In this document: positions 19,992-43,336 of the stretch, one piece after another
Layout of the letters: each line of letters starts with the position of its first letter
How positions within the stretch are numbered: the stretch's first letter is position 1
IMG/VR virus record: IMGVR_UViG_3300020183_000140
Span: 1 to 45,747 of that record
Direction: 5' to 3' (one strand)
Source of the DNA: a virus
DNA: 45,747 nucleotides
Made by a program: the position numbers and the translations under genes
The notes under the pieces: model-generated
The model's input: the letters and a program-made list of their open reading frames with translations, nothing else
What the model was told of the DNA's origin: nothing
Database searches by the model: none

Positions 19992-22900
19992 TTAAGAAAA
20001 AGCGTTAGGGTCTTTTTGTAAAATATCCCAATAGTATTTAAATTTATTAATTCTATCTTGATATCCATTTGGGGGATTTTTTCCATTTATCCAAGATCCT
20101 ATTTTGTTAATTATTGCAACAGATGATCCTTCTTTTGCTTTTTGGGAAAATTTTTTAACTCCTTTAGGACCTGCTACTTTCCAAAAATAAACAGATACAT
20201 CAGCGGCATATTTAGTAGCTACTAATGTAGGATTTTTTACTACATCATCTGTTTTACCTTTAGTTTTAAGATAGTCATTATAACTAATGTAATTTGATTT
20301 TCCTGTTAATTGAATATAACCTCTTCCTTTATATTTTTTTCCGTCTCCAGGAGATGTATTGCCTAAATCTTTTCTACCTTCATATGCTTCTCCAGAAGCA
20401 AATTCGGTTGTTGCAGAAAATCTAGCGGATTCAGTGTTGCATTGAGCTAAAAAATGAGCTTTTTCTAAAGGATCAGTTATACCATATTCTTTCATAGCTT
20501 GAATTAAACTAGGAGGTGGAGTCATAGTTGGTTTATCGTATTTAGGTGGGTTATTGTTTATATCTTCTACTATAGCTTCAGCTGTAATAACTAAATCTTT
20601 TAATTCATTTGTTTTAGGAATTAATGTAGTTTCAATATTTGTTTCCCAGTCATCATTTGATAATTTATGGCTAACTCCTGTTACAATTAAATCTAGTTCA
20701 GTTCCATATGCTTTAGGTAAAAAACGAGTATCAACGTGTAATTTGTTGTATATCTTTATACCCGATATTCCATCCATAGAAAAATTCAATTTAAACGGAA
20801 TAAACCCAACAGTTCCACCTTGTTGGTTCTTTTGAGATGCAATTAAATATTTATAGTATTCTGTTACAACTGAGATATTTTTTTCAATAGCACCTGGGTC
20901 TATTTGAAGGTTTTTAGCATTGGTACTTACTATGTTCCCTTTAAACCCATAACGAGAAGCATTGCCTGCTTTAGCCGATAAAAATTTATTAATATAGTTT
21001 GATGCAGCTTCATCTTCACCGTTTTCTTCTTGAGAATTTTCATTTCCCGGGATAAGTTTTTCTTTAAATCTATCGGTTAACCCATCATTCCATTTTGAAA
21101 ATGCTGTAGCTTCTATTCCTTTAACATATCCTCCTGCGGTTGCTCCTACTGTAATCATAGTTGCATATTCTGGGGTGATAGCTGTTTTTAAATCAACGTT
21201 TCTAACAAAGTTAGAAGTAGAAGCATTATACCCAAATAATTGTAATGTATAAGAAGCTGTTTCAGAACCTATACCAGGGATAGGAGTAGTATCAATAATA
21301 TAAAGAGTATTAGTATCTTCATTTATGATAGGTTCTAAATTATTTATTCCTCCTAAAGATTTATTTAAACCATCACATATTGCTTTTAAAAATCCAAATA
21401 TTCCAATATCTCCTTTTTCATCTAAATTATTATTAATGCAATTTATTATAAATTCAAAATTTAGATATATATTCATAATATATGCCTTATTAGGGTTAGG
21501 TTTTGATGAATAATCTTCAGATCTAAAAGGCAATAAATGTCTGTATACTTCTGTTATTCCATTAGAAGTTTGAAATTTATCATTTCTTACTATACAAACT
21601 CTTGGATCTAAAGAAATTTGATTTGGTAACGAATACATATAATTTCCTAAGTCTCCAGTTCCATATACATCAGTATTTATACTAAATACAGGTGGTTTAT
21701 TCTTATAATTCGAATTAGATGTATCTACTTTAGGAATAATAGTAGTTCTTAAATACTGTAATAAAGCTCCAAATCTTAAATAAAATTGTTTATCAGGTTC
21801 AGTAGTTATAAAACATGCATCTTTTTTACTAAAATTAGTTAAAGGACTATCAATAGTTGTTTTTTTATTCCCTAAACTTTCATAACCTGCTAAAACTCTT
21901 TTATAATCTTGAATACCACTAGGATTAACAAAACTTAATCGATTTTTTCCATCCGTTATTAATTTATCATCTCTTGATTTACGTTCTTTTTGAGCTTCTT
22001 CTTCGTGATTTGGATAAATATTAAGATCATAAGGTATTTCAACAGATTTATAGTAAGTATCTGGACTTAAGTCTGGGTATATTTCTATATCATATCCATA
22101 AGCTAGGTAAGCAAATCTATATGTAACAAATGTAGAAGTAAGAGTAGTTGAGGTTTCTAAAAATGCTCCTACAAATCTATCTCCTTCATCTGGACGTCTT
22201 ATATAAATGCTATCTTCATAGGATTGATAAGTTAATAAATCTTTATTAACATATTTCCAACAATATAACATTGCTGCTATATCATTAGAATCAGCATTTT
22301 CTTCAATAAGATTATTTCCTCCTTCACTTCCTGAGGGGTTAGCAGCAAGAGTATTTTCAATAAATAGGCTTAATTGTCGGTTTGATGAAATATTAGTTTT
22401 TAAAGATTCAACTACATCACCTAAACTTATTATAGTAATTTCTATATCATATGACCCATCAGATTGAAAAGTCCAATTAAAATTTGATACTTTACCTAAA
22501 AGCCCATCATAATTTCCCTTATATTTATCTCGATAATACTCTATTACGAAAAGTATGTCTCTATGAGACTTTCCTTTTCCATATTCTGGGTTAAAAAATC
22601 TTTTTTCATCTTCTACAATGGTTTGTTGAACTAATTGTCTATCGGTACCGTTAGAAGTGTACATACTATTTCCCCATTCAAGTAAAACAGTATATCCTAA
22701 TCTTAGATAAAGAAGATCAATAACATCAAATTGTTGTTTATTATTAGCAGTAAGTTTAACTGTTGCTTTTTTAAGCGAACCCCTATTTAATGCTTTTATA
22801 TCAGCACTTATAATTCCGGGCATAGGAGAATATCCAAAATCTCCATGTAAATATGAACTATTGGATTGGTAGGGTAAAAATCCTTCTTTTTGTTGAAGTC

Positions 22901-23171
22901 TTTGTCCTCCTACTAATTTAGAAGTTCCTCCAAATAAAACATTATTTTTTGCTAACTCCATCCCACTATAAGATGTACTTACTTGTATATCTCTTAATCT
23001 ACTAGCATTTACTGAAATTCCAGATGCTAATTTTACCCAAGAAGAATTTGAATTTAATACACTAATTTGTTGTGGTGTTCTACTAGTAGAAGTTCCACTT
23101 CCATGTAACTTTTGTCTTGCATTAATTTGGCTTATAGTATAACTTTCTATTTCCTGTCCTATTATTGACAT
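19992..23171 (-). CDS. Baseplate hub protein fused to GH19 muralytic domain
   Basis: 1059 residues. The N-terminal 700 or so look like a gp27-type central hub: GFLPYQSNSSYLHGDFGY, MPGIISADIKALNRGSLKKATV, and FDVIDLLYLRLGYTVLLEWGNS are the usual 'G.I....N.GSL..A......FD...LY.R.GY..LLEWG' blocks. Residues about 884-1059 form a glycoside hydrolase family 19 domain (chitinase/lysozyme): HFLAQCNTESARFS carries E914, one of E923/E928/E931 is the second acid, and YKGRGYIQLTGKSNY is the substrate-loop signature. It would open peptidoglycan during DNA entry, like T4 gp5 but with a different enzyme. Starts 3 nt below the wedge gene. Confidence 0.88.
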   Translation of the reverse strand: MSIIGQEIESYTISQINARQKLHGSGTSTSRTPQQISVLNSNSSWVKLASGISVNASRLRDIQVSTSYSGMELAKNNVLFGGTSKLVGGQRLQQKEGFLPYQSNSSYLHGDFGYSPMPGIISADIKALNRGSLKKATVKLTANNKQQFDVIDLLYLRLGYTVLLEWGNSMYTSNGTDRQLVQQTIVEDEKRFFNPEYGKGKSHRDILFVIEYYRDKYKGNYDGLLGKVSNFNWTFQSDGSYDIEITIISLGDVVESLKTNISSNRQLSLFIENTLAANPSGSEGGNNLIEENADSNDIAAMLYCWKYVNKDLLTYQSYEDSIYIRRPDEGDRFVGAFLETSTTLTSTFVTYRFAYLAYGYDIEIYPDLSPDTYYKSVEIPYDLNIYPNHEEEAQKERKSRDDKLITDGKNRLSFVNPSGIQDYKRVLAGYESLGNKKTTIDSPLTNFSKKDACFITTEPDKQFYLRFGALLQYLRTTIIPKVDTSNSNYKNKPPVFSINTDVYGTGDLGNYMYSLPNQISLDPRVCIVRNDKFQTSNGITEVYRHLLPFRSEDYSSKPNPNKAYIMNIYLNFEFIINCINNNLDEKGDIGIFGFLKAICDGLNKSLGGINNLEPIINEDTNTLYIIDTTPIPGIGSETASYTLQLFGYNASTSNFVRNVDLKTAITPEYATMITVGATAGGYVKGIEATAFSKWNDGLTDRFKEKLIPGNENSQEENGEDEAASNYINKFLSAKAGNASRYGFKGNIVSTNAKNLQIDPGAIEKNISVVTEYYKYLIASQKNQQGGTVGFIPFKLNFSMDGISGIKIYNKLHVDTRFLPKAYGTELDLIVTGVSHKLSNDDWETNIETTLIPKTNELKDLVITAEAIVEDINNNPPKYDKPTMTPPPSLIQAMKEYGITDPLEKAHFLAQCNTESARFSATTEFASGEAYEGRKDLGNTSPGDGKKYKGRGYIQLTGKSNYISYNDYLKTKGKTDDVVKNPTLVATKYAADVSVYFWKVAGPKGVKKFSQKAKEGSSVAIINKIGSWINGKNPPNGYQDRINKFKYYWDILQKDPNAFS

Positions 23172-28671: not shown

Positions 28672-29400
28672 TCATAGGTCAGGCCAAAAAAAGCTAATCC
28701 CAATTGGGATATTGATTCTATCGTTACTCCCGTCGGGAAAAAAAGTTAAATCAACATCGGGTTGAATTTCTCTAACATATTCTCTTAATGCCCTGGAGTC
28801 TTGGGCGAGAAGATAATTGTCAACAAACTCTCGAATATCTTTTTTATCTCGTTTTCCTTCTACTGAGGTAATTAGGTATTTTAAACGGGTTGAAAGTTCA
28901 GGGGAAGCATCTTTATTGATTTTTTTTAAACCTTCTAGTTCACGTGTAATATCTTGTTCGTCTTTATGACTTAAAAGTTTAAATGTAACTACATTACCTG
29001 ATTTAGGAAGAGTAAAAGTAAATTCATTTACATGACTTGTAAATAATTCTTCTTTAAGTGGTTTGTTTTCAACTTGAGATAAATCTACTGTGTGTGAATC
29101 ACCTAAATAATTAAAAGTGTATTCAGCTCCATATCCTAAAATACGGGCAGCAACCATAATTGCATTTTTATCACCTATTAATAGATCATCATAGTTAATT
29201 TTCGATACAATCAATGATTTCATTAATTTATCTAGTACAGTACCGTTTTTAATATATGATTGGTTAGTAAGAATATCTTCTTCTTTAGCAGTCATGTATT
29301 TAATTTCAACAGTACCTTTTGCTAATTCAGAATCTTCAGGGTATAGTAAGCCTTTAGAGGGTAACTCAACTGTTTCAGTTAGTAATTTAAATTCTTCCAT
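28672..29400 (-). CDS. Baseplate hub subunit, gp26-like
   Basis: 242 residues. VELPSKGLLYPEDSELAKGTVEIKYMTAKEEDILTNQSYIKNGTVLDKLMKSLIV at the N-terminus and DLLIGDKNAIMVAARILGYG are characteristic of the gp26 family of contractile-tail phages ('LPS.G.LYP....G.V.I..MTA.EEDILT....I..G...D.L'). The rest is beta-rich with FKLLSHKDEQDITRELEGL. It ends SFFWPDL. In T4, gp26 is part of the central baseplate spike region that is fitted on the hub. The following small gene starts at the stop codon. Confidence 0.85.
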   Translation of the reverse strand: MEEFKLLTETVELPSKGLLYPEDSELAKGTVEIKYMTAKEEDILTNQSYIKNGTVLDKLMKSLIVSKINYDDLLIGDKNAIMVAARILGYGAEYTFNYLGDSHTVDLSQVENKPLKEELFTSHVNEFTFTLPKSGNVVTFKLLSHKDEQDITRELEGLKKINKDASPELSTRLKYLITSVEGKRDKKDIREFVDNYLLAQDSRALREYVREIQPDVDLTFFPDGSNDRINIPIGISFFWPDL

Positions 29401-29441: not shown

Positions 29442-29813
29442 TTAAAGAGAAGAGATATTATCAGGATTTACATTATATGATAAAACTCCTTCTACTTTTA
29501 ATATTTCTTTACGTATGTCTTCCATTTTTGAACGATCAAAACCACCTTTTGTAATCCAAGGATGACCATCTACTTTAATAGTTAAAATAGTTTGAAATTT
29601 TTCTGTATTTTGTTCATTATATGGCATAGGTTCTTTTGAAGATGCTACTGTAACTCCGGGGATAGAGCGGATGTCGGAAAATATTTCTTTTTGGGGGCGT
29701 TGTTTAATGTTAGAAATAAGCATACCAACCATTTTAAATTTATCTTGGTATTTTTCATTTAATTGCTTATTAAGCTCTTCTTTAACTAAAGTACGTAAGT
29801 GGTTCAGTTTCAT
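29442..29813 (-). CDS. Hypothetical protein with N-terminal EE-helix
   Basis: 123 residues. After an N-terminal amphipathic helix (MKLNHLRTLVKEELNKQLNE) comes an alpha/beta region: KMVGMLISNIKQRPQKEIFSDIRSIPGVTVASS, ILTIKVDGHPWITKGG and IRKEILKVEGVLSYNV. This beta-alpha-beta pattern with paired 'I..IPGV' and 'I.KVEGV' helices suggests a ferredoxin-like fold. It lies between the hub genes and the SprB-like gene. The function is unknown; the helix is shared with unrelated proteins of the window. Confidence 0.62.
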   Translation of the reverse strand: MKLNHLRTLVKEELNKQLNEKYQDKFKMVGMLISNIKQRPQKEIFSDIRSIPGVTVASSKEPMPYNEQNTEKFQTILTIKVDGHPWITKGGFDRSKMEDIRKEILKVEGVLSYNVNPDNISSL

Positions 29814-29818
29814 ACTAT

Positions 29819-29827
29819 TATAAATAT
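29819..29827 (-). promoter_or_regulatory. Late-gene element ATATTTATA
   Basis: Sense ATATTTATAATAGT directly before the ATG (5-nt spacer) of the 123-residue gene, at the end of the SprB-like gene. Confidence 0.35.
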
Positions 29828-29831
29828 TGTA

Positions 29832-32294
29832 CTATCTAATAAGGGTAACACTTCCTTTAATTAATGTTTCTTTATCTGTGTTTTTGTCTCCATAAACTAT
29901 AACCCAAGTATAAACTCCATCTTGACATTTTGTATTGTTGTATGTTCCATCCCAAGGAACTGTACTATTATAACTTTTAAACATTAATTCTCCCCATCTG
30001 TTATAGATAGTTAAATAAAAATCTTGTGGGTCAAAACCTGAAGTAAAGACTGGGTGCCAAGCATGGTTGATTTCATTCCCATCAGGGGTAAATGTATTTG
30101 GGATATAAATTAATTCTTCAGGGCATCTTTGAATAGTTGTCAAATAAGATGTTGGGTATGATACACATCCGTTTTGGTATCCTACAGCTGAAAATGTAAA
30201 GGATCCAAAACTATCCCAAGAAATAGGTAAAATTGGGTTTGTAATACTATCTTGGTTTAAAATCCACACTACATCTCCACCTCCTAAAACAGTTGCACTA
30301 TAAATTCTTCCTATACTATCGCCTTCACACAATTCTATAAATTCAGATGTTAGGTTTCCTAAATCATTTTGTATAGATGAAATAACAGGTCTAGAATAAA
30401 CAGTTATTTGGCGAGTAGTATCAAAAGTACAATTTGATTGCACATAAGTATATGTTATTGTATTGGTTCCTGCTAATAAAGGTGAAGGACAAAATGTATT
30501 CCCGTTTACTCCATTTCCTGTAAATGTTCCCCCAACAGGAGCTCCAGTTAATGTTACACAATTACTATAATCACATAATGAAGTAATCGAGTCTATCGTA
30601 GGTAAAACATTTAAAATATAAACATTAACATCTTGTGGTAAGCTTGTACAACCAAATTGATTTATCGCTACAACATTAACAGCTCCAGGCATAAATCCTG
30701 CAGGAAATAGAGACCAATCTACTGTAATACTATTTGTTCCTTGACCTGAAGTGATGTTTCCAACACTTGACCAAGTGTAAGAATATCCTGCACCTAAACT
30801 TGGTACTGAATATGTTTCATTAGAAGATAAATAACAGATTGTATCTAGTGAAGTAATATTTCCTACTACAACCATTGGAGGGTTTACTAAAGCAATAGTA
30901 TTTAAAGCAGGACACCCATTTGCATCTGTTACTATAACATTATAAGCTCCTGCACATAAATTAGTTGCGGTTTGTGTTGTTTGTCCATCTCCCCATAAAT
31001 AAGTGTATGGAGCAATACCATCAATTGAGTTTGCTGTTGCAGTTCCATTACAATCTCCAAAACAAATAGGGTTTGTTGCTGCCATCAATGGCACTTGTAA
31101 AATAGGTGGATCTATTAATGTAGTATTTGCTGTAATAGTGCAGTTGTTTGCATCTGTTACAGTTACTGTATAAGTTCCTGCACATAGATTGTTAATTGTT
31201 TGGGTATTTTGGCCGCTACTCCAAACATATCCTATAGGAGGAGTACCGTTTGTTGGGTTTACTGTAATAGATCCGTTACAATCTCCGTTACATAATGGAT
31301 TTGTTACTACAAAATTCGGTTGATTTAAATTTGGTGGACCCGGAACAACTTGAATAGTATCAGGCCCTAGTCCACCACCTAATGCACTACAAGTTGCCCA
31401 ACCTGCATTACAAGCCGGATACTCCAAATGACAAGTATAGTAAGCTCCACCTTGAGAAGGTGTAACTGTAATTTGATTTACGTTTTGAGCAATAGGAACA
31501 GGATTTCCTACTTGATACCAAACTAAAGTTGGCAAAACAGGTGCACCACTAGGTGTCCATCTCCAAGCATTATTTACTGCAGTCCATTGAGTTGAATTTC
31601 TACCAGGTACTGTTACTGCCTGCGTTCCTACAACATTATGTACGCCATGCACTGCAGTACCATTAGCCCATTGATTACAACCAGGTTTATTAGCAAGATA
31701 ACTTTCAATATAATTAGTTGATTCATAAATTACTATATGAAATGTGCCTTGTAAGTTAGTGCACGAAAACATAGGCACTCCGATCCAACTTACTGTTAAT
31801 TTGCGGCAAGGAGCCGTGCCTGAGGTTTGGTAGCGTATTTGTCCGCCTAGACTAGGATTCCAATCTTGCCACGGGCCCATTATGCAATTTTTTGGTACTG
31901 CTGCGTTTACTGATGGTATTGCTTGTGTTGTAAATGTAGTTGGCTGTACACCTGCACCCAACGAGATCCAACCATTTGAGCCTATTCGAAACTGAGTATA
32001 GGTTTGTCCATAAAAACAAAAAGTAAATCCAATGTTAAACGTGCCTGATTGGGAGTCATCACTTAAGGCTACTAAAGTACCTGTATTAACTTGGGGCACA
32101 TATAGTATTTGAGAAACTGTATAATTTGTAGTTTGATTAGGGTTATTACCTGCTCCACATTGGCTTAAATCTGCGGTTAAAGTAGTTGAAGTTACACCAC
32201 AAGGTAATATTTGATTAGGACCTAAATAAGGGCAATATTGACTATAAATAAAACCTGTTAGTAGTATAAATAAAAGTAAATTAATTTTTTTCAT
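29832..32294 (-). CDS. Secreted SprB-like adhesin with T9SS/gliding C-terminal domain
   Basis: 820 residues. A Sec signal peptide (MKKINLLLFILLTGFIYSQ) precedes an extracellular beta domain (GFTFCFYGQTYTQFRIGSNG, PWQDWNPSLGG). About residues 330-475 hold two SprB-type repeats, each with N.LCNGDCNGSITV, then Y.WS.GQ.TQT..NLCAGTY.VTVTDAN.C. PKD-like domains follow. The C-terminal 90 residues are the gliding-motility-associated (CHU_C, type B) sorting domain: YIPNTFTPDGNEIN, FYLTIYNRWGELMF, WDGTYNN, DGVYTWVI, KGSVTLIR. In Bacteroidota this signal exports proteins through the type IX system to the outer surface. Between phage tail genes, with local GC up to 55%. Confidence 0.88.
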   Translation of the reverse strand: MKKINLLLFILLTGFIYSQYCPYLGPNQILPCGVTSTTLTADLSQCGAGNNPNQTTNYTVSQILYVPQVNTGTLVALSDDSQSGTFNIGFTFCFYGQTYTQFRIGSNGWISLGAGVQPTTFTTQAIPSVNAAVPKNCIMGPWQDWNPSLGGQIRYQTSGTAPCRKLTVSWIGVPMFSCTNLQGTFHIVIYESTNYIESYLANKPGCNQWANGTAVHGVHNVVGTQAVTVPGRNSTQWTAVNNAWRWTPSGAPVLPTLVWYQVGNPVPIAQNVNQITVTPSQGGAYYTCHLEYPACNAGWATCSALGGGLGPDTIQVVPGPPNLNQPNFVVTNPLCNGDCNGSITVNPTNGTPPIGYVWSSGQNTQTINNLCAGTYTVTVTDANNCTITANTTLIDPPILQVPLMAATNPICFGDCNGTATANSIDGIAPYTYLWGDGQTTQTATNLCAGAYNVIVTDANGCPALNTIALVNPPMVVVGNITSLDTICYLSSNETYSVPSLGAGYSYTWSSVGNITSGQGTNSITVDWSLFPAGFMPGAVNVVAINQFGCTSLPQDVNVYILNVLPTIDSITSLCDYSNCVTLTGAPVGGTFTGNGVNGNTFCPSPLLAGTNTITYTYVQSNCTFDTTRQITVYSRPVISSIQNDLGNLTSEFIELCEGDSIGRIYSATVLGGGDVVWILNQDSITNPILPISWDSFGSFTFSAVGYQNGCVSYPTSYLTTIQRCPEELIYIPNTFTPDGNEINHAWHPVFTSGFDPQDFYLTIYNRWGELMFKSYNSTVPWDGTYNNTKCQDGVYTWVIVYGDKNTDKETLIKGSVTLIR

Positions 32295-32307: not shown

Positions 32308-32343
32308 TAAAAGAAAATAAAAGCCCCAAATTTCTTTGGAGCT
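32308..32343 (-). terminator. Intrinsic terminator between tail tube and SprB-like gene
   Basis: Sense AGCTCCAAA-GAAA-TTTGGGGCT (32322-32343), nine pairs including one G-U, then TTTATTTTCTTTT. It ends transcription from the tail tube gene before the SprB-like gene, which therefore may have its own promoter. Confidence 0.85.
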
Positions 32344-32369
32344 TTACCTGATAAATTATTAACCTAATA

Positions 32370-32858
32370 TTAGTAGTTTAAAATACAGTAATCAGGTTGA
32401 ACTGTTACTTGGATATTTACTGGGGTTCCATCATCATCCCAGTTATAGTCTCCAAAGTTAACTTCAGTAATAAAAGCTCCTTTAATAATCCATTCAGAAA
32501 CAATATCACCTACAGGACCTAAAACGTTAAATGTAAGATCTTTTTTATAGAAATCAGAATACCCATCTCTACCTGTTACTGATTCATGTCCTAAACGTAC
32601 CCATTCCATTACTGCTTGGGCTCCAGAAGGAGTAATTGATTCATACATTGTAAATTGGATAGTATTCCATTTTGTTTTTCCTTTCACATAACGTTGAATA
32701 TTAATGTGATTAAGAGTAACTGTAGATTGGGTTAAAGAAACAGCTCCTATTTGTTTAACAAGATATGAAGGAATCCCATCTAAATAAAGGATAAAACGGT
32801 TTGTTTGTTTTGGTTCAAACGCTGTGTAAAATATTTCGTTTGGGTTTAAAATTGCCAT
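32370..32858 (-). CDS. Tail tube protein, gp19-like
   Basis: 162 residues. AFEPKQTNRFILYLDGIPSYLVKQIGAVSL, IQRYVKGKTKWNTIQFTMYESITPSGAQAVMEWVRLGHESVTGRDGY and DLTFNVLGPVGDIVSEWIIKGAFITEVNFGDYNWDDDG are the blocks of T4 gp19-family tube proteins. Rings of six stack to form the inner tube through which DNA passes. Length is typical. It lies next to the two sheath genes as in other contractile phages. A late-gene element sits 22 nt upstream and a terminator follows. Confidence 0.93.
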   Translation of the reverse strand: MAILNPNEIFYTAFEPKQTNRFILYLDGIPSYLVKQIGAVSLTQSTVTLNHINIQRYVKGKTKWNTIQFTMYESITPSGAQAVMEWVRLGHESVTGRDGYSDFYKKDLTFNVLGPVGDIVSEWIIKGAFITEVNFGDYNWDDDGTPVNIQVTVQPDYCILNY

Positions 32859-32904: not shown

Positions 32905-34635
32905 TTACCCTGGAAATTCTGCTCCTGTTGGGAGTAAAATAAAATCCAAAGAAATAAATTCAGCGGTACGTGTTGGTTGAATATAAATTTGTCCAATTAA
33001 TTGGTTTTGATCAATTACAGCTGGTCCATTATTTGAATCATCCATTATTACTTTATAAGCATATAATCCTTGTTTTTGTTGGATAGCTTCTAAATATGGA
33101 TTAACTCTAGCTAAAAATGAAGTTCTAGTTTGAATTGTATTTTGTTCAAATACAATTGTATCAGCAATTTGGCGGATATAATTTTTAAGTTCAATTAATA
33201 AACGTCTTACATTTACACGATCAAGAGCTGAATCTGCTTTTTGTAAAGTTTTTTGTCCAAATACTACAACACCTTGTTTAGGTAACGTAGCAATTGGATT
33301 AATATTATTTGAATATAAAGAATCTCTATTATTTTGAGTTAATTTTAATTCTGCTTGTAATACTGTACCTAAACCACCACGATTAATACCTGCAGGTGCA
33401 AACCAAGGAGCAGATACTTTATCGTTAAAGGCGTATACACCTGGTATTACAGTTGAAGCTGGGGCCCAAATATGTTTTCCTGTTGATGGGTCAATAATGC
33501 GAACCCAAGGCCAATATGAAGCAGCATATGAAGTATCACGAGTTTGAGCTTGTGTAATAGCTTGAGAAACTGTACTTCCATATGCTACTAAATCTGCTAC
33601 AAACATACTATCACCTCTAGCAATTGTATTAGTAATAATATTTGTAATTTGACCAGTATGAGTATCGTTTAATAATCCAGGGGCAAATAAAAGGTTAAAT
33701 TGATATGCTTCTTGATTACCAAATAAAGCAATCATAGTATTATAATCACTTCCTACTAATCCTTGAGTATTAGATGAATTTATATTTTCATAAAAATTAA
33801 TAGCTGATGAAATTAAAACAGTTCCTGTGGCTCCTCCAAAAGCACCACCTAAAGAACCACTTCCATTTGCTGGAAGAGACCCTGTGTATAATGGATTAGC
33901 TACAACTCCATTTGAATTTAAATAGTTTGGAGTAGTATAATTTACTTCTTTTACACGAACAAATTTTGAATTATTTGGATAACTTCCAGATAATACCATT
34001 TGAACATTGCCAGAATCATAGTTTAATTTTTGATCTCCAATTACTTGAGCAATAAAACGAGATGAATTAGGATCTAAATTTACATTGTTCCAAGACTCTA
34101 AAACAATTTTATTAGTTTGAGTGTCGTCTCCTCTTCTAATCAATACATTAAATGTACCTGACCCAGTATTTACATTAGTGACTTCCCACCTTACATTTTC
34201 TTTACTTCCTGGAAGCAATGAACCTAAAGCTCCTGAACCTGAGTTGTTCATAATGGTACCTTCAGAAATTGTTTCTAAAACAAATGGAGAGAAACCTGAA
34301 GTTGGGCCACTAGATCCTGTAGGCATGTAGCTACTAGTAGCAGAAGAATATGATCCTGAAACAACACGGGCCACTAACAATGAAGTACCACCGTAATTAA
34401 AATAATTGTAAGCAGCAATTGAAGTTAAATATGAATAAGCATTACCACCACTAATAAAAGTATCTCCAAATAACATTTGAAAATCTGAATAAGATGTTAC
34501 TAAAGTTGGTTTTTCAACTGGACCTTTAACTGTTGGTCCTATAATAGCCGCACCTGCTTGAACTGGTTGTCCTGTTAAAAATGTATTATCTATTTCGCTA
34601 ACTGCTACTCCAGGAGAAACTGTGAATTTTGCCAT
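32905..34635 (-). CDS. Tail sheath protein, gp18-like, copy 1
   Basis: 576 residues. N-terminus VSPGVAVSEIDNTFLTGQPVQAGAAIIGPTVKGPVEKPTLV, the usual sheath start. The core has TLPKQGVVVFGQKTLQKADSALDRVNVRRLLIELKNYIRQIADTIVFEQN and IQPTRTAEFISLDFILLPTGAEFPG, the conserved C-terminal domain that contacts the tube. It packs around the tube and contracts to drive it through the envelope. It is a clear paralogue of the next gene. A late-gene element lies 13 nt upstream. Confidence 0.93.
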   Translation of the reverse strand: MAKFTVSPGVAVSEIDNTFLTGQPVQAGAAIIGPTVKGPVEKPTLVTSYSDFQMLFGDTFISGGNAYSYLTSIAAYNYFNYGGTSLLVARVVSGSYSSATSSYMPTGSSGPTSGFSPFVLETISEGTIMNNSGSGALGSLLPGSKENVRWEVTNVNTGSGTFNVLIRRGDDTQTNKIVLESWNNVNLDPNSSRFIAQVIGDQKLNYDSGNVQMVLSGSYPNNSKFVRVKEVNYTTPNYLNSNGVVANPLYTGSLPANGSGSLGGAFGGATGTVLISSAINFYENINSSNTQGLVGSDYNTMIALFGNQEAYQFNLLFAPGLLNDTHTGQITNIITNTIARGDSMFVADLVAYGSTVSQAITQAQTRDTSYAASYWPWVRIIDPSTGKHIWAPASTVIPGVYAFNDKVSAPWFAPAGINRGGLGTVLQAELKLTQNNRDSLYSNNINPIATLPKQGVVVFGQKTLQKADSALDRVNVRRLLIELKNYIRQIADTIVFEQNTIQTRTSFLARVNPYLEAIQQKQGLYAYKVIMDDSNNGPAVIDQNQLIGQIYIQPTRTAEFISLDFILLPTGAEFPG

Positions 34636-34681: not shown

Positions 34682-36439
34682 CTAAGCAGGAAATGTTGCA
34701 CCTGTAGGTAATATATTAAAGTCTAATATAATAAATTCAGCCGTTCTAGTAGGTTGTAAATAAATTTGTCCTACTAATTTATTATTATCTACTACTAAAG
34801 GTGGGTTATTTGATTCATCCATGATAACTCTAAAAGCTGTTAAACCTTGTTGTTGTTGAACAGAAGCTAAATATGGGTTAATAGCTGCTACAAAATTATT
34901 CCTAGTAACAGCATCATTTTGTTCAAATACAAATGTGTCTCCTATTTGAGATATGTAGTTTTTAAGTTCAATTAATAAACGTCGTACATTTACACGATCT
35001 AAAGCACTTTTTTTCTTTTGTAATGTTTTTTGCCCAAATACTGTTACCCCGGATCCAGGAAATGTTGCAATTGGATTTACATTTCCTTGATAAAGTGAAT
35101 CTCTATTTGTTTGAGTTAATACTCTTTCAGTTTGAACTACTGTTGTCATAAGACCTCTATTAATGCCTGCAGGTGCAAACCAAGGAAATGCTACATTATC
35201 ATTAAATGCATATACACCTGGGATCATTGTTGATGCGGGAACCCAAACTTGATTACCATAATTGGGGTCAATAGTTTTTAACCAAGGCCAATAAGTTGCT
35301 GCGTATGATGTATCAAAAGCACTAGCTGCGGTAGTTACAGGGGTTAAATTTGAATTATATCCAACAACATCTACTATAGCCATAGCATCTCTTCTATCTT
35401 GAACCATTGTAATTAGTTGTTGAACTGTGTTAAAATGATATGAAGAATTTCCTATTAACCCAGGAGCTGTTATAAAATTATAATTGTATGCGTCTTTATT
35501 TGCTAATAAAGCAATAGATTCTGTGTAATCATTAGCTGTTAAGCCTTGGATATTAGTTGCTGAGATAGTTTCATAATATGCTCCTGCAACCCCTGTGGGG
35601 ATATTGCTTCCTTTCCCATCTCCAAATGATCCACTGCTAACAATAGGTAAAGAACCAGTAAATTGATTTTTTGGAATGCCATTGTTATCAAAATAATCTG
35701 GTGTAGTTTGGTTTACTCGTTTAACTCTAACATATGATGATTGATTTGGATAATTTCCTAAAAGTTGAACATAATATTCACCTGTTGTTGGGTCATTTAA
35801 AATAGTTTCAACTTGATTACCTATTATCTTTTCAATATAATTTGCAGAAAATGGGTCTAAAGATACAGGGCCCCAAGTTTCTAATATAGACATAAAATTT
35901 GTAGTATCATTTCCTTGTCTAATTAATACTGTAAAAGTACCGGTATTAATATCTGGGGATACTATTTGCCATCTAAAATTGTTTGCTGAACCGCTTAATA
36001 AAGTTCCATTAGATCCTGTAGGACCTGTATTATTCATTATTTCTCCTTCAGAAATTGTTTCTAAAACAAATACATCTGTATTATAAGGAGCACCAACAGC
36101 ATGAGCAGATGCAGAAATAAATGATGATGTTGCAGGAGTCCAATTAGTAGTTGTACTACCATTAACTACACGAGTTACTAATAATGAAGTACCACCACTA
36201 TTAAAATAATTAAAGGCTGAAATAGAGGTAAGGTAGGTATAGGTTTGGCTTCCACTTAAAAAAGTAGTGCCAAATTTATTTTGGTATTCACTAAATGTTG
36301 TAACTAATGTAGGAATACCTACTTTACCTTTAACCGTTGGTCCTATAATAGCTGCACCTGCTTGTACAGGAGCTTGTGTAATAAAAGATTGGTCATTTTC
36401 TATTGCTAATACACCAGGTGATACAATTGTTTCTGCCAT
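34682..36439 (-). CDS. Tail sheath protein, gp18-like, copy 2
   Basis: 585 residues, with the same start pattern (VSPGVLAIENDQSFITQAPVQAGAAIIGPTVKGKVGIPTLV) and the same C-terminal block (VNVRRLLIELKNYISQIGDTFVFEQN, LQPTRTAEFIILDFNILPTGATFPA) as its neighbour. The middle (about 100-330) diverges most, as expected for the outer, exposed sheath domains. Both copies look intact, with no frameshift or missing core strand. Each has its own late-gene element, so both are probably made. The two could form a mixed sheath or a modified end of the tail. Confidence 0.92.
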   Translation of the reverse strand: MAETIVSPGVLAIENDQSFITQAPVQAGAAIIGPTVKGKVGIPTLVTTFSEYQNKFGTTFLSGSQTYTYLTSISAFNYFNSGGTSLLVTRVVNGSTTTNWTPATSSFISASAHAVGAPYNTDVFVLETISEGEIMNNTGPTGSNGTLLSGSANNFRWQIVSPDINTGTFTVLIRQGNDTTNFMSILETWGPVSLDPFSANYIEKIIGNQVETILNDPTTGEYYVQLLGNYPNQSSYVRVKRVNQTTPDYFDNNGIPKNQFTGSLPIVSSGSFGDGKGSNIPTGVAGAYYETISATNIQGLTANDYTESIALLANKDAYNYNFITAPGLIGNSSYHFNTVQQLITMVQDRRDAMAIVDVVGYNSNLTPVTTAASAFDTSYAATYWPWLKTIDPNYGNQVWVPASTMIPGVYAFNDNVAFPWFAPAGINRGLMTTVVQTERVLTQTNRDSLYQGNVNPIATFPGSGVTVFGQKTLQKKKSALDRVNVRRLLIELKNYISQIGDTFVFEQNDAVTRNNFVAAINPYLASVQQQQGLTAFRVIMDESNNPPLVVDNNKLVGQIYLQPTRTAEFIILDFNILPTGATFPA

Positions 36440-41629: not shown

Positions 41630-43336
41630 TTATACAAATGAACCTGATCTCCAAGCTCCGTTCATCCACATATAAAGGAAATATTGGCCTCCTACGGTTG
41701 CAGGGACAATTTCTCCATCAGTTCCTGTCCAAGAAGGAGCAGCTGATTGGGTTGTAGGTAATACAATTGAACCGGACATTCTAACTTTGAAAGCATCTGA
41801 ACGAGCTAATTGTCCTGTACCATTACCAACAATCATTAATGAAGTATCATCTCCTTGGGTATTAAATTGGCCTTGGACATGTTGGTATGAGCCTGAGGCT
41901 ATTGTGCCTAATCCTTCTGCATGAGAATAATCACCTACGGCTTGGGTACCTGAACCTTCAGCATGAGAGTAATCTCCTACGGCTTGAGTGATCCTACCTT
42001 CTGCATGAGAATATGATCCTAAAACACTGTTTTCTTGTCCTGAGGAAAAGGATCCAGATATAATAACTTTTCTAGAGGAAAAATCACCTCCAATTAATGG
42101 GTCACCATAATCATTATTAATGTAAAGTTTATTACTTTGATTTACTTGAGAAGAAGGTCCTGCTTTAATTCCTAAATAAACATTTCCAGTAGAGTTTGCA
42201 GAAGCATTTCTTCCAGCTAAAAATCCAACAGCTACGTTATCATTCCCAGCAGTTAAATGTTCAAAAGTATTATCACCTATTGCTACATTTTGAAAACCTG
42301 TAGTATTAGCATTCATAGCATTTGTTCCTACCCCTATATTGTTAGTTCCTGAGGTAACAGAACTTAAAGAATGATATCCTACTGCTGTGTTTTGGATACC
42401 TGTAGATGCATTTTTTAAAGAAGAATGTCCTACTGCAGTGTTATGTCCACCTGAAGTAAGATTTTCTAATGAATATGATCCTAGAGCAGTATTGTAACTG
42501 TTAAGTCCTGAAGGACCTCCAATATAAGATACTAAAGTGTTAGATCCTATAGCAGTGTTGCCCAATCTATCATCATTAGATGATGCTGAAAAAGATAAAT
42601 CTCCTACAACTATATTACTTGATCCTGATTTAGGGCCTTGTCCTACTCTAACTGAATTAAAATATGCATCTCCGTCTGTAGCAATACCATTTGCAGTTGA
42701 AGATAAAGTTCCTTGAATAGTTCCACTTCCGTCTAAAAAGTTTATTGTACCATTTGATACATAAATATCTTTCCATGCGTTTGTAGGTGAACCTAAACTA
42801 AATGATGAAGTAGTAGAGGCACCATTTGTAGCTGGTATAATTGATCCACTAATTAAAAGTGAACCTGAAAATGTAAGGTTATTTGTTGATGGGTTAAATG
42901 TTAAAGTAGTTTTACTATAAACACCTGAAAAATTATCAAATACTCCTGGCCATCCAAGCAAAATTGGGTAATTTCCAGGTGGAAGCCCTGAGGTAGTAGT
43001 ATATACTGAGTCAGCTTCAGTTGCATTGTTTACATACCCATCAACATTTGCACCAGCAACGTATGATGCAGATGTAGTGTTTGTAGGTATTAAAGTTGAA
43101 ATATCAACATTGAATGTACTTCCATCCCCCTTTTCAAAAGTTAAATTAGGGTCAGAAAATGAAGCTGTAACTAGTAAAGAACTAGTGTTAACACTTCCAC
43201 CACCGTTCAAAGCATAAGAAGCGGTTAAAGCATTTGTGATTGATCCACTAATATTTCCTGTTACGGTTAAACTACCAGATATAACAAGGTTATTTCCTGT
43301 AGTTGAGGATATTGTGTTTACATTTAATGTACTCAT
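41630..43336 (-). CDS. Tail fibre protein with NTAVG and HAEG repeats
   Basis: 568 residues. N-terminal cap MSTLNVNTISSTTGNNLVISGS. The middle (about 260-390) has roughly six repeats of NTAxGxxSLxxxxSGxxN type (NTALGSYSLENLTSGGHNTA, NTAVGYHSLSSVTSGTNN), a left-handed beta-roll pattern. A HAEG repeat block follows, with 113 bp identical to the 1988-3232 fibre gene. The C-terminal 45 residues (SWTGTDGEIVPATVGG, YLYMWMNGAWRSGS region) match those of the 507-residue neighbour. A trimeric fibre is likely. Late-gene element 14 nt upstream. Confidence 0.78.
   Translation of the reverse strand: MSTLNVNTISSTTGNNLVISGSLTVTGNISGSITNALTASYALNGGGSVNTSSLLVTASFSDPNLTFEKGDGSTFNVDISTLIPTNTTSASYVAGANVDGYVNNATEADSVYTTTSGLPPGNYPILLGWPGVFDNFSGVYSKTTLTFNPSTNNLTFSGSLLISGSIIPATNGASTTSSFSLGSPTNAWKDIYVSNGTINFLDGSGTIQGTLSSTANGIATDGDAYFNSVRVGQGPKSGSSNIVVGDLSFSASSNDDRLGNTAIGSNTLVSYIGGPSGLNSYNTALGSYSLENLTSGGHNTAVGHSSLKNASTGIQNTAVGYHSLSSVTSGTNNIGVGTNAMNANTTGFQNVAIGDNTFEHLTAGNDNVAVGFLAGRNASANSTGNVYLGIKAGPSSQVNQSNKLYINNDYGDPLIGGDFSSRKVIISGSFSSGQENSVLGSYSHAEGRITQAVGDYSHAEGSGTQAVGDYSHAEGLGTIASGSYQHVQGQFNTQGDDTSLMIVGNGTGQLARSDAFKVRMSGSIVLPTTQSAAPSWTGTDGEIVPATVGGQYFLYMWMNGAWRSGSFV
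41877..41989. repeat. 113-bp perfect direct repeat, copy B (in fibre gene)
   Basis: Identical to 2868-2980, same orientation and frame. The sequence diverges immediately outside the copy on both sides. The distance between the copies is 39 kb. Confidence 0.95.
42165..42562 (-). repeat. Coding tandem repeat, NTAVG motif
   Basis: About six degenerate repeats of 20-25 codons in the 568-residue fibre gene (NTAIG, NTALG, NTAVG, NTAVG, NNIGVG, NVAIG, NVAVG), separated by loops rich in S, T and G. The DNA copies are only loosely similar, so they are old. Confidence 0.75.

Follow-up and report, generated by a model that had tools for sequence, protein, structure and literature searches.

The window analysed here, a virus record of 45,747 bases, contains an ATG-initiated open reading frame encoding an 820-residue protein with the architecture of a one-piece type IX secretion system (T9SS) type B adhesin (Table 1). 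The frame lies on the same strand as the recognised phage genes of the window and sits among genes of a myovirus tail (sheaths, tube, baseplate hub, tape measure and tail X), in keeping with the phage tail region named in the initial annotation. That annotation had also described a signal peptide, SprB repeats and a T9SS C-terminal domain, and had proposed HMM searches with CHU_C/T9SS type B and SprB models. Matches above the curated Pfam and NCBIfam cut-offs bear out both domain assignments: CHU_C scores 50.8 bits (cut-off 27), the NCBIfam T9SS type B sorting domain 41.6 bits over residues 730–820 (cut-off 35) and SprB 52.5 bits (cut-off 28; two stretches, the best at residues 328–363). PKD_6 is matched at 42.9 bits (cut-off 25), and further Ig-like domains are present besides the head, the SprB repeats and the PKD-like domain. 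The signal peptide is recognisable by eye, signal peptides being called throughout by eye or by a crude rule, and cleavage would be expected before Gln19.

Table 1. Features of the adhesin gene and its surroundings in the window.
Feature	Coordinates	Strand	Evidence
One-piece phage T9SS type B adhesin, 820 residues	29832–32294	-	ORF, domain matches, 194 viral matches
Signal peptide, residues 1–18	32241–32294	-	By eye; same pattern in 23/23 aligned homologues
Head module, residues 19–320	31335–32240	-	Most conserved part of the adhesin
SprB repeat region, residues 325–475	30870–31322	-	PF13573, two stretches; alignment
PKD-like domain, residues 476–551	30642–30869	-	PF19408; region homologous to split subunit B (joint alignment)
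T9SS type B C-terminal signal, residues 730–816	29847–30107	-	PF13585, TIGR04131
Tail tube (gp19-like), edge of cargo slot	32370–32858	-	phrog_4542 tail tube, 4.4e-24
123-residue phage gene (p123), other slot edge	29442–29813	-	Own ATATTTATAA motif starting at 29827
Baseplate hub (T4-like)	28672–29400	-	phrog_150, 3.3e-7
Two tandem tail sheath genes	32905–34635 and 34682–36439	-	PF04984 and PF17482 on 32905–34635
Intrinsic terminator upstream of the adhesin, closing the tail-tube transcript	32320–32345	-	11-bp stem

Mean identity among 23 phage copies is 73% in the head and 39–58% in the other mature domains. The head probably combines a nidogen-like beta domain with an Ig-like domain: of 101 family members, 16 give a weak NIDO match and 13 an Ig_7 match, the window's own copy giving neither. 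An AF2 model of the head has a mean pLDDT of 93.5 and no PDB match at E 0.001; with VIA-align, Z scores reach at most 7.2, over common Ig folds. Five viral proteins match the model at E 0.001, one a leucine-rich-repeat protein and the others uncharacterised or unnamed. The full-length model is of lower quality (mean pLDDT 76.9, pTM 0.37). SprB repeat number differs from phage to phage in the alignment; no SprB match was found in the relative L054, and the region is missing from L056.

The search for the gene in related phages suggested by the initial annotation returned the same arrangement on 26 other viral contigs, with the tube gene directly upstream of the adhesin, among 59 viral loci carrying relatives. 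At one further locus (L035), on a contig cut at its left end, p123 lies directly downstream of the adhesin, and 32 of the 59 loci have no tested neighbour in common with the window. A chimeric assembly joining host and phage DNA is vanishingly improbable, given that the same junctions recur on 26 contigs, two of which (L002 and L003) encode an adhesin identical in protein sequence to that of the window. Both sheath genes match the sheath of the cultured Flavobacterium phage immuto, the pair being approximately 55% alike (L002), and among 50,697 phage records the sheath is best matched, at 51% identity, by Flavobacterium phages of the immuto group. In immuto itself, the tube gene (58% identical) is followed by the hub gene (62%), with neither the adhesin nor p123 between them.

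Among the best 80 further tube relatives, the adhesin is present in eight; p123 or the hub follows within 600 bases in 55, five hold other inserts, nine have no room and three are unassigned. The 26 carriers already known fall outside this set, so that 8/80 understates the frequency of the adhesin. In L271 the tube is 91% identical, the slot is empty and the hairpin is kept. Elsewhere the slot holds an endonuclease-like ORF (L320, by eye) or a split form of the adhesin (L275); inspection by eye of the inserts behind the tube gene in L320, L325, L328, L305, L308 and L334 gave endonuclease-like, tail-fibre-like and unknown ORFs. Other phage lineages have the adhesin beside non-tail genes, namely thymidylate synthase and groEL, topoisomerase II or a dehydrogenase, or a glycosyltransferase, and the protein is therefore best read as accessory cargo of an insertion slot and not as a part of the tail.

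The hairpin upstream of the adhesin is present in 26/26 copies by eye. The initial annotation had correctly recognised a terminator there, but had assigned it to the adhesin; a similar hairpin stands at this position in adhesin-free relatives as well, which makes it the end of the tube transcript and not a part of the adhesin. A second signal, ATATTTATAA, occurs 12 times on the coding strand of the window, each time 13–34 bases before an ORF, and once on the other strand (expected 1.0 per strand). The minus-strand sites include 32889, 34657 and 36466 besides that of p123, and the motif is probably a phage late promoter element. It is absent before 26/26 adhesin copies. A separate timing of adhesin expression, considered on account of this absence, was dropped because 10 of the 21 split cassettes in the tube–hub slot do have the motif. 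Two other candidates were rejected: TATATTAA is too common for another promoter (40 sites, eight of them upstream of genes), and p123 is not a conserved partner of the adhesin, being unlike the similarly placed gene of 122–124 residues elsewhere and also occurring without the adhesin. Separately, a 1059-residue protein is encoded in the baseplate region of the window (19992–23171); its last 170 residues match endolysin families, with a weak GH19 match below cut-off.

The position among tail genes raises the question of whether the protein is a component of the virion, for instance a Hoc-like decoration or a fibre, and residues 422–516 do match the Hoc-like head decoration family PHROG 2973 (2.5e-8). 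This is very unlikely in view of the signal peptide in all 23 copies, a T9SS signal under purifying selection (below), the uniform lack of the late motif, the placement of the gene outside the tail region in other lineages and its absence from many tube relatives. Judged by these features, the adhesin appears not to be a virion part.

Profile searches gave 194 viral and 119 bacterial matching stretches, of which the best 80 of each were kept. The head tree was built from 201 sequences, reduced to 140 by removal of near-duplicates (63 viral, 77 bacterial); all trees were calculated with FastTree and rooted at the midpoint. All 63 distinct viral heads form one clade (support 0.927) inside the diversity of the 77 bacterial sequences, and this clade is unchanged (support 0.948) after addition of ten more bacterial loci, the best from 198 genomes of a Bacteroidota class. 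A single phage clade inside Bacteroidota diversity argues that the adhesin is an old and widespread phage gene family. In the tree of the T9SS signal (approximately 100 residues), the viral signals do not form one clade and fall into groups of 69, 8 and 35; either exchange of the signal or its short length would account for this. Median dN/dS among eleven copies of the window's lineage is 0.12–0.29 across the mature domains (head 0.15, T9SS signal 0.12), values that indicate purifying selection on the adhesin, its secretion signal included.

The initial annotation had taken a local rise in GC content as a hint of transfer. The adhesin gene is indeed richer in GC than the window (0.359 against 0.319); the excess sits at second codon positions (0.485), a pattern shared with several other genes (e.g., 41630–43336, 0.515), and GC3, at 0.169, falls inside the span of the other listed ORFs (0.07–0.28). 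The case for recent capture from GC content was accordingly rejected, and the single clade of phage heads also speaks against it. That the gene is a recent acquisition from a host, with no function for the phage, is highly improbable: the head module is common in Bacteroidota (137/198 genomes of one class), but against this stand the phage clade, the phage-like GC3, purifying selection and full-length relatives on contigs of up to 436 kb and in an uncultured phage of 634,780 bases, whose copy is 49% identical over 98% of the length.

Among the carriers are contigs of 290 and 436 kb, and tblastn searches with the head and the signal against the 50,697 phage records found matches in uncultured phages only. 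CHU_C is present in 30 of the 32 records tested. The viral status of the IMG/VR contigs was checked by hallmark searches: of 23 records (LR756502.1 and 22 carriers), 18 gave a terminase and 15 a sheath at E 0.001, nine of the latter above the sheath cut-off. A tyrosine integrase was found in 0/21 records (19 carriers), on which ground the carriers look virulent; the search covered the tyrosine type alone, and many records are fragments.

The family also exists in a split form, found in L275 and in three large contigs (G008, 140 kb; G020, 152 kb; G021, 436 kb) that also hold a one-piece copy. Its three genes lie next to one another, and every product starts with a signal peptide of its own: a head (A), a stalk (B) homologous to approximately residues 476–640 of the one-piece form, and an anchor (C) homologous to approximately residues 640–820. 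Split loci comprise L275 (3865–5630), L223, L224, L225 and L350–L416. A stalk profile found 67 viral loci, of which two are cut off and 65 were analysed; in 22 of the 65, the cassette adjoins tail genes of the window's own type. The 65 loci encode 47 distinct stalks, all of which end in P-I-x-H followed by Asn (44) or Asp (3). An ORF abuts the stalk upstream at 65/65 loci, and among the 50 distinct sequences, chosen regardless of how they end, 47 end in His-Asn, two in His-Asp and one (L407) in neither. The downstream ORF is readable at 60 of the 65 loci; its 42 distinct versions carry the strict T9SS motif in 38 cases and degenerate forms, judged by eye, in four. Other ORFs of at least 120 residues in the split loci have the His-Asn end in 3/237 cases, and these three are heads themselves.

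Within the stalks alone, 41 of 197 alignment columns are invariant, so the tail is not exceptional there and the case for it rests on its being shared by unrelated proteins. The heads fall into two families of 5 and 41 distinct members. When the two families are compared, 11 of the 12 best matches fall at the extreme C-terminus (10–15 residues) and one in the signal peptide, so that otherwise unrelated proteins share the same tail. Between sister cassettes the head family differs while stalk and anchor stay the same. It is the protein and not the DNA that is conserved, since all four His-Asn codon pairs are used (46, 20, 18 and 6 of 93 distinct A and B ends, the A ends in this count having been chosen for His-Asn; Asp in the other three).

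In a joint alignment of 47 stalks and 31 one-piece proteins, split forms typically have the terminal His-Asn and, where the mature stalk begins, Gln19, Thr22, Asn24 and Pro25. These residues are infrequent in one-piece proteins, from which the I-x-H-N end is absent. In L375 and L387, A and B both end in His-Asp and Asn24 of B is replaced by Gln; the two loci are much alike, and both changes may reflect one event. In L395, B but not A ends in His-Asp. No acceptor site stood out in C. An ORF with such an I-x-H-N end was found in 0/120 bacterial loci, and a head-type tag pattern in 0/395 genomes; the latter would catch 21 of 46 distinct heads and 0/47 stalks, so that it tests bacterial absence only in part. 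The open-access literature searched yielded neither the split form nor I-x-H-N ends, the motif itself not being among the search terms.

The tail shared by head and stalk is perhaps an assembly signal. There is about an even chance that Bacteroidota phages encode a modular fibre in interchangeable one-piece and A-B-C forms, with I-x-H-N as a phage-invented signal by which A docks on or joins B, and B joins C. In such a scheme, each of the three subunits would be produced and reach the periplasm on its own; the tail of A would then engage B and the tail of B would engage C, and only C would need a T9SS signal. Heads could in this way be exchanged without rebuilding the anchor.

Several other phage proteins have features of secreted proteins. 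In the cultured Flavobacterium phage immuto 3-5A (L222, 2528–7869), a run of genes with signal-peptide-like starts includes a C-type lectin and a cohesin-domain protein whose T9SS tail is of type A (PF18962 match); the end of immuto18 resembles an outer-membrane barrel by eye. A 1670-residue protein of LR756502.1 (L063, 8416–13428) has 13 SprB stretches and a T9SS signal, and lies in the same topoisomerase II neighbourhood in which L048 and L050 carry a 740-residue adhesin. In L020 (10524–12842) and L040 (10528–12471), a second secreted Ig_7 protein is located directly behind the adhesin, its end resembling a degenerate type A tail by eye. The huge phages LR745206.1 and LR756502.1 contain four and three type B T9SS signals, respectively, one of which in each phage belongs to an ORF of only 127 or 121 residues.

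Export by the type B route requires a PorP/SprF shuttle, which is mostly encoded next to its cargo (9 of 12 genes in Flavobacterium johnsoniae, as reported in PMC12618676). No PorP/SprF gene was found in 32 phage records searched without a positive control, nor in 12 viral records in a repeat on 16 records whose four Bacteroidota genomes, the positive controls, gave 10–20 copies each. The bacterial relatives are similar in this respect: among 58 loci whose downstream sequence exceeds 1 kb, a shuttle gene lies directly behind in one (L139). A type B-like signal is present in 48 of the 58, L139 among them, and the L139 signal groups with shuttle-linked signals. For the phage signals, the mean of the best matches is 0.49 to the signals of bacterial relatives (56 compared) and 0.35 to shuttle-linked signals (15 compared), an uneven comparison that is tilted toward the larger set; the window's own signal does not exceed 0.49 identity to any of the 56. 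Since the bacterial relatives too are nearly always without a linked shuttle, the phage adhesin likely uses a host shuttle shared among cargos. There is precedent in F. johnsoniae, where three orphan type B cargos (Fjoh_1123, 1720 and 4934) are described as using one common shuttle (Fjoh_1677) and reaching the gliding machinery (PMC12618676). These are cellular genes, likened here to the phage gene by description, with which they share a type B signal and the lack of a linked shuttle gene. The adhesin gene is probably portable for the reason that it was an orphan cargo already, for which a host shuttle common to several cargos suffices.

We put the probability at roughly 0.6 that the protein is an accessory surface adhesin of virulent-looking Bacteroidota phages, displayed on the infected cell through the host T9SS. 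It would leave the infected cell through Sec and then the T9SS, carried by a shared shuttle of the kind that serves the three F. johnsoniae orphans, and would remain on the cell surface or the gliding machinery. One point against this account is that type B secretion is reported to be shuttle-specific (PMC12618676), and a foreign signal may therefore be exported poorly. According to the same paper, the core domain is not always sufficient as a type B signal.

Two published cases of phage-encoded T9SS cargo emerged from the open-access literature searched, and neither showed the present type B family or its split form. Bellas et al. (2020, PMC7468147) described proteins with T9SS signals encoded by Cryophage genomes and proposed a part for them in superinfection exclusion or in competition between strains. 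The Cryophage signals are of type A and are found on an endoglucanase, a glycoside hydrolase 39 and a PA14 protein, highly variable between variants, whereas the present protein is type B, adhesin-like and a single family across many phages. BACON-bearing crAss-like phages of the gut also have ORFs with T9SS sorting domains; these carry BACON domains, and no conserved adhesin family is seen in the accessible part of that report (PMC6949934).

Among cellular proteins, the gliding adhesin SprB shares the SprB repeats and the type B signal. SprB is far larger than the 820-residue phage protein and is linked to sprF; the phage adhesin is without PorP/SprF. By description, the favoured function outlined below would, if correct, resemble that of T5 Llp, a small phage lipoprotein that blocks a single receptor from its place on the envelope of the infected cell.

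What the displayed adhesin does is harder to define, and superinfection exclusion is slightly favoured over adhesion. Somewhat short of even odds, we suggest that the adhesin occupies the shuttle and surface sites or masks SprB-type receptors, so that further phages would adsorb less well. Carriers without an integrase fit exclusion, as do the proposal of gliding-linked phage receptors (PMC7345892) and the role put forward for the Cryophage cargo (PMC7468147). The strongly conserved head of the one-piece form points to a conserved ligand and is not what would be expected of a receptor mask in an arms race. Alternatively, the protein may promote adhesion or aggregation, infected cells or their debris sticking to particles, algae or other cells and the progeny meeting hosts more often. 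We consider this the next most likely use, a little less probable than exclusion. The adhesin architecture and the differing head families of sister cassettes are in its favour, as is the match of the family profile to the Aureispira grappling hook protein GhpA (PDB 9flp; 4.5e-56, best stretch at profile positions 325–725), a cellular protein of 5898 residues; the head profile alone has no PDB sequence match. Against it, the head has no known ligand, and its model has no structural match in the PDB.

The one-piece and split forms together suggest that infected cells are given a new outer decoration by these phages. If this is correct, virulent-looking phages, and not temperate ones alone, would use the host's type IX system to remodel the outer surface of Bacteroidota. 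This would provide a testable link between the T9SS, gliding receptors and phage competition in hosts that are abundant in aquatic and gut habitats. Should the I-x-H-N ends join subunits that are exported separately, they would represent a new way to assemble surface fibres, and possibly a tool for display on Bacteroidota cells.
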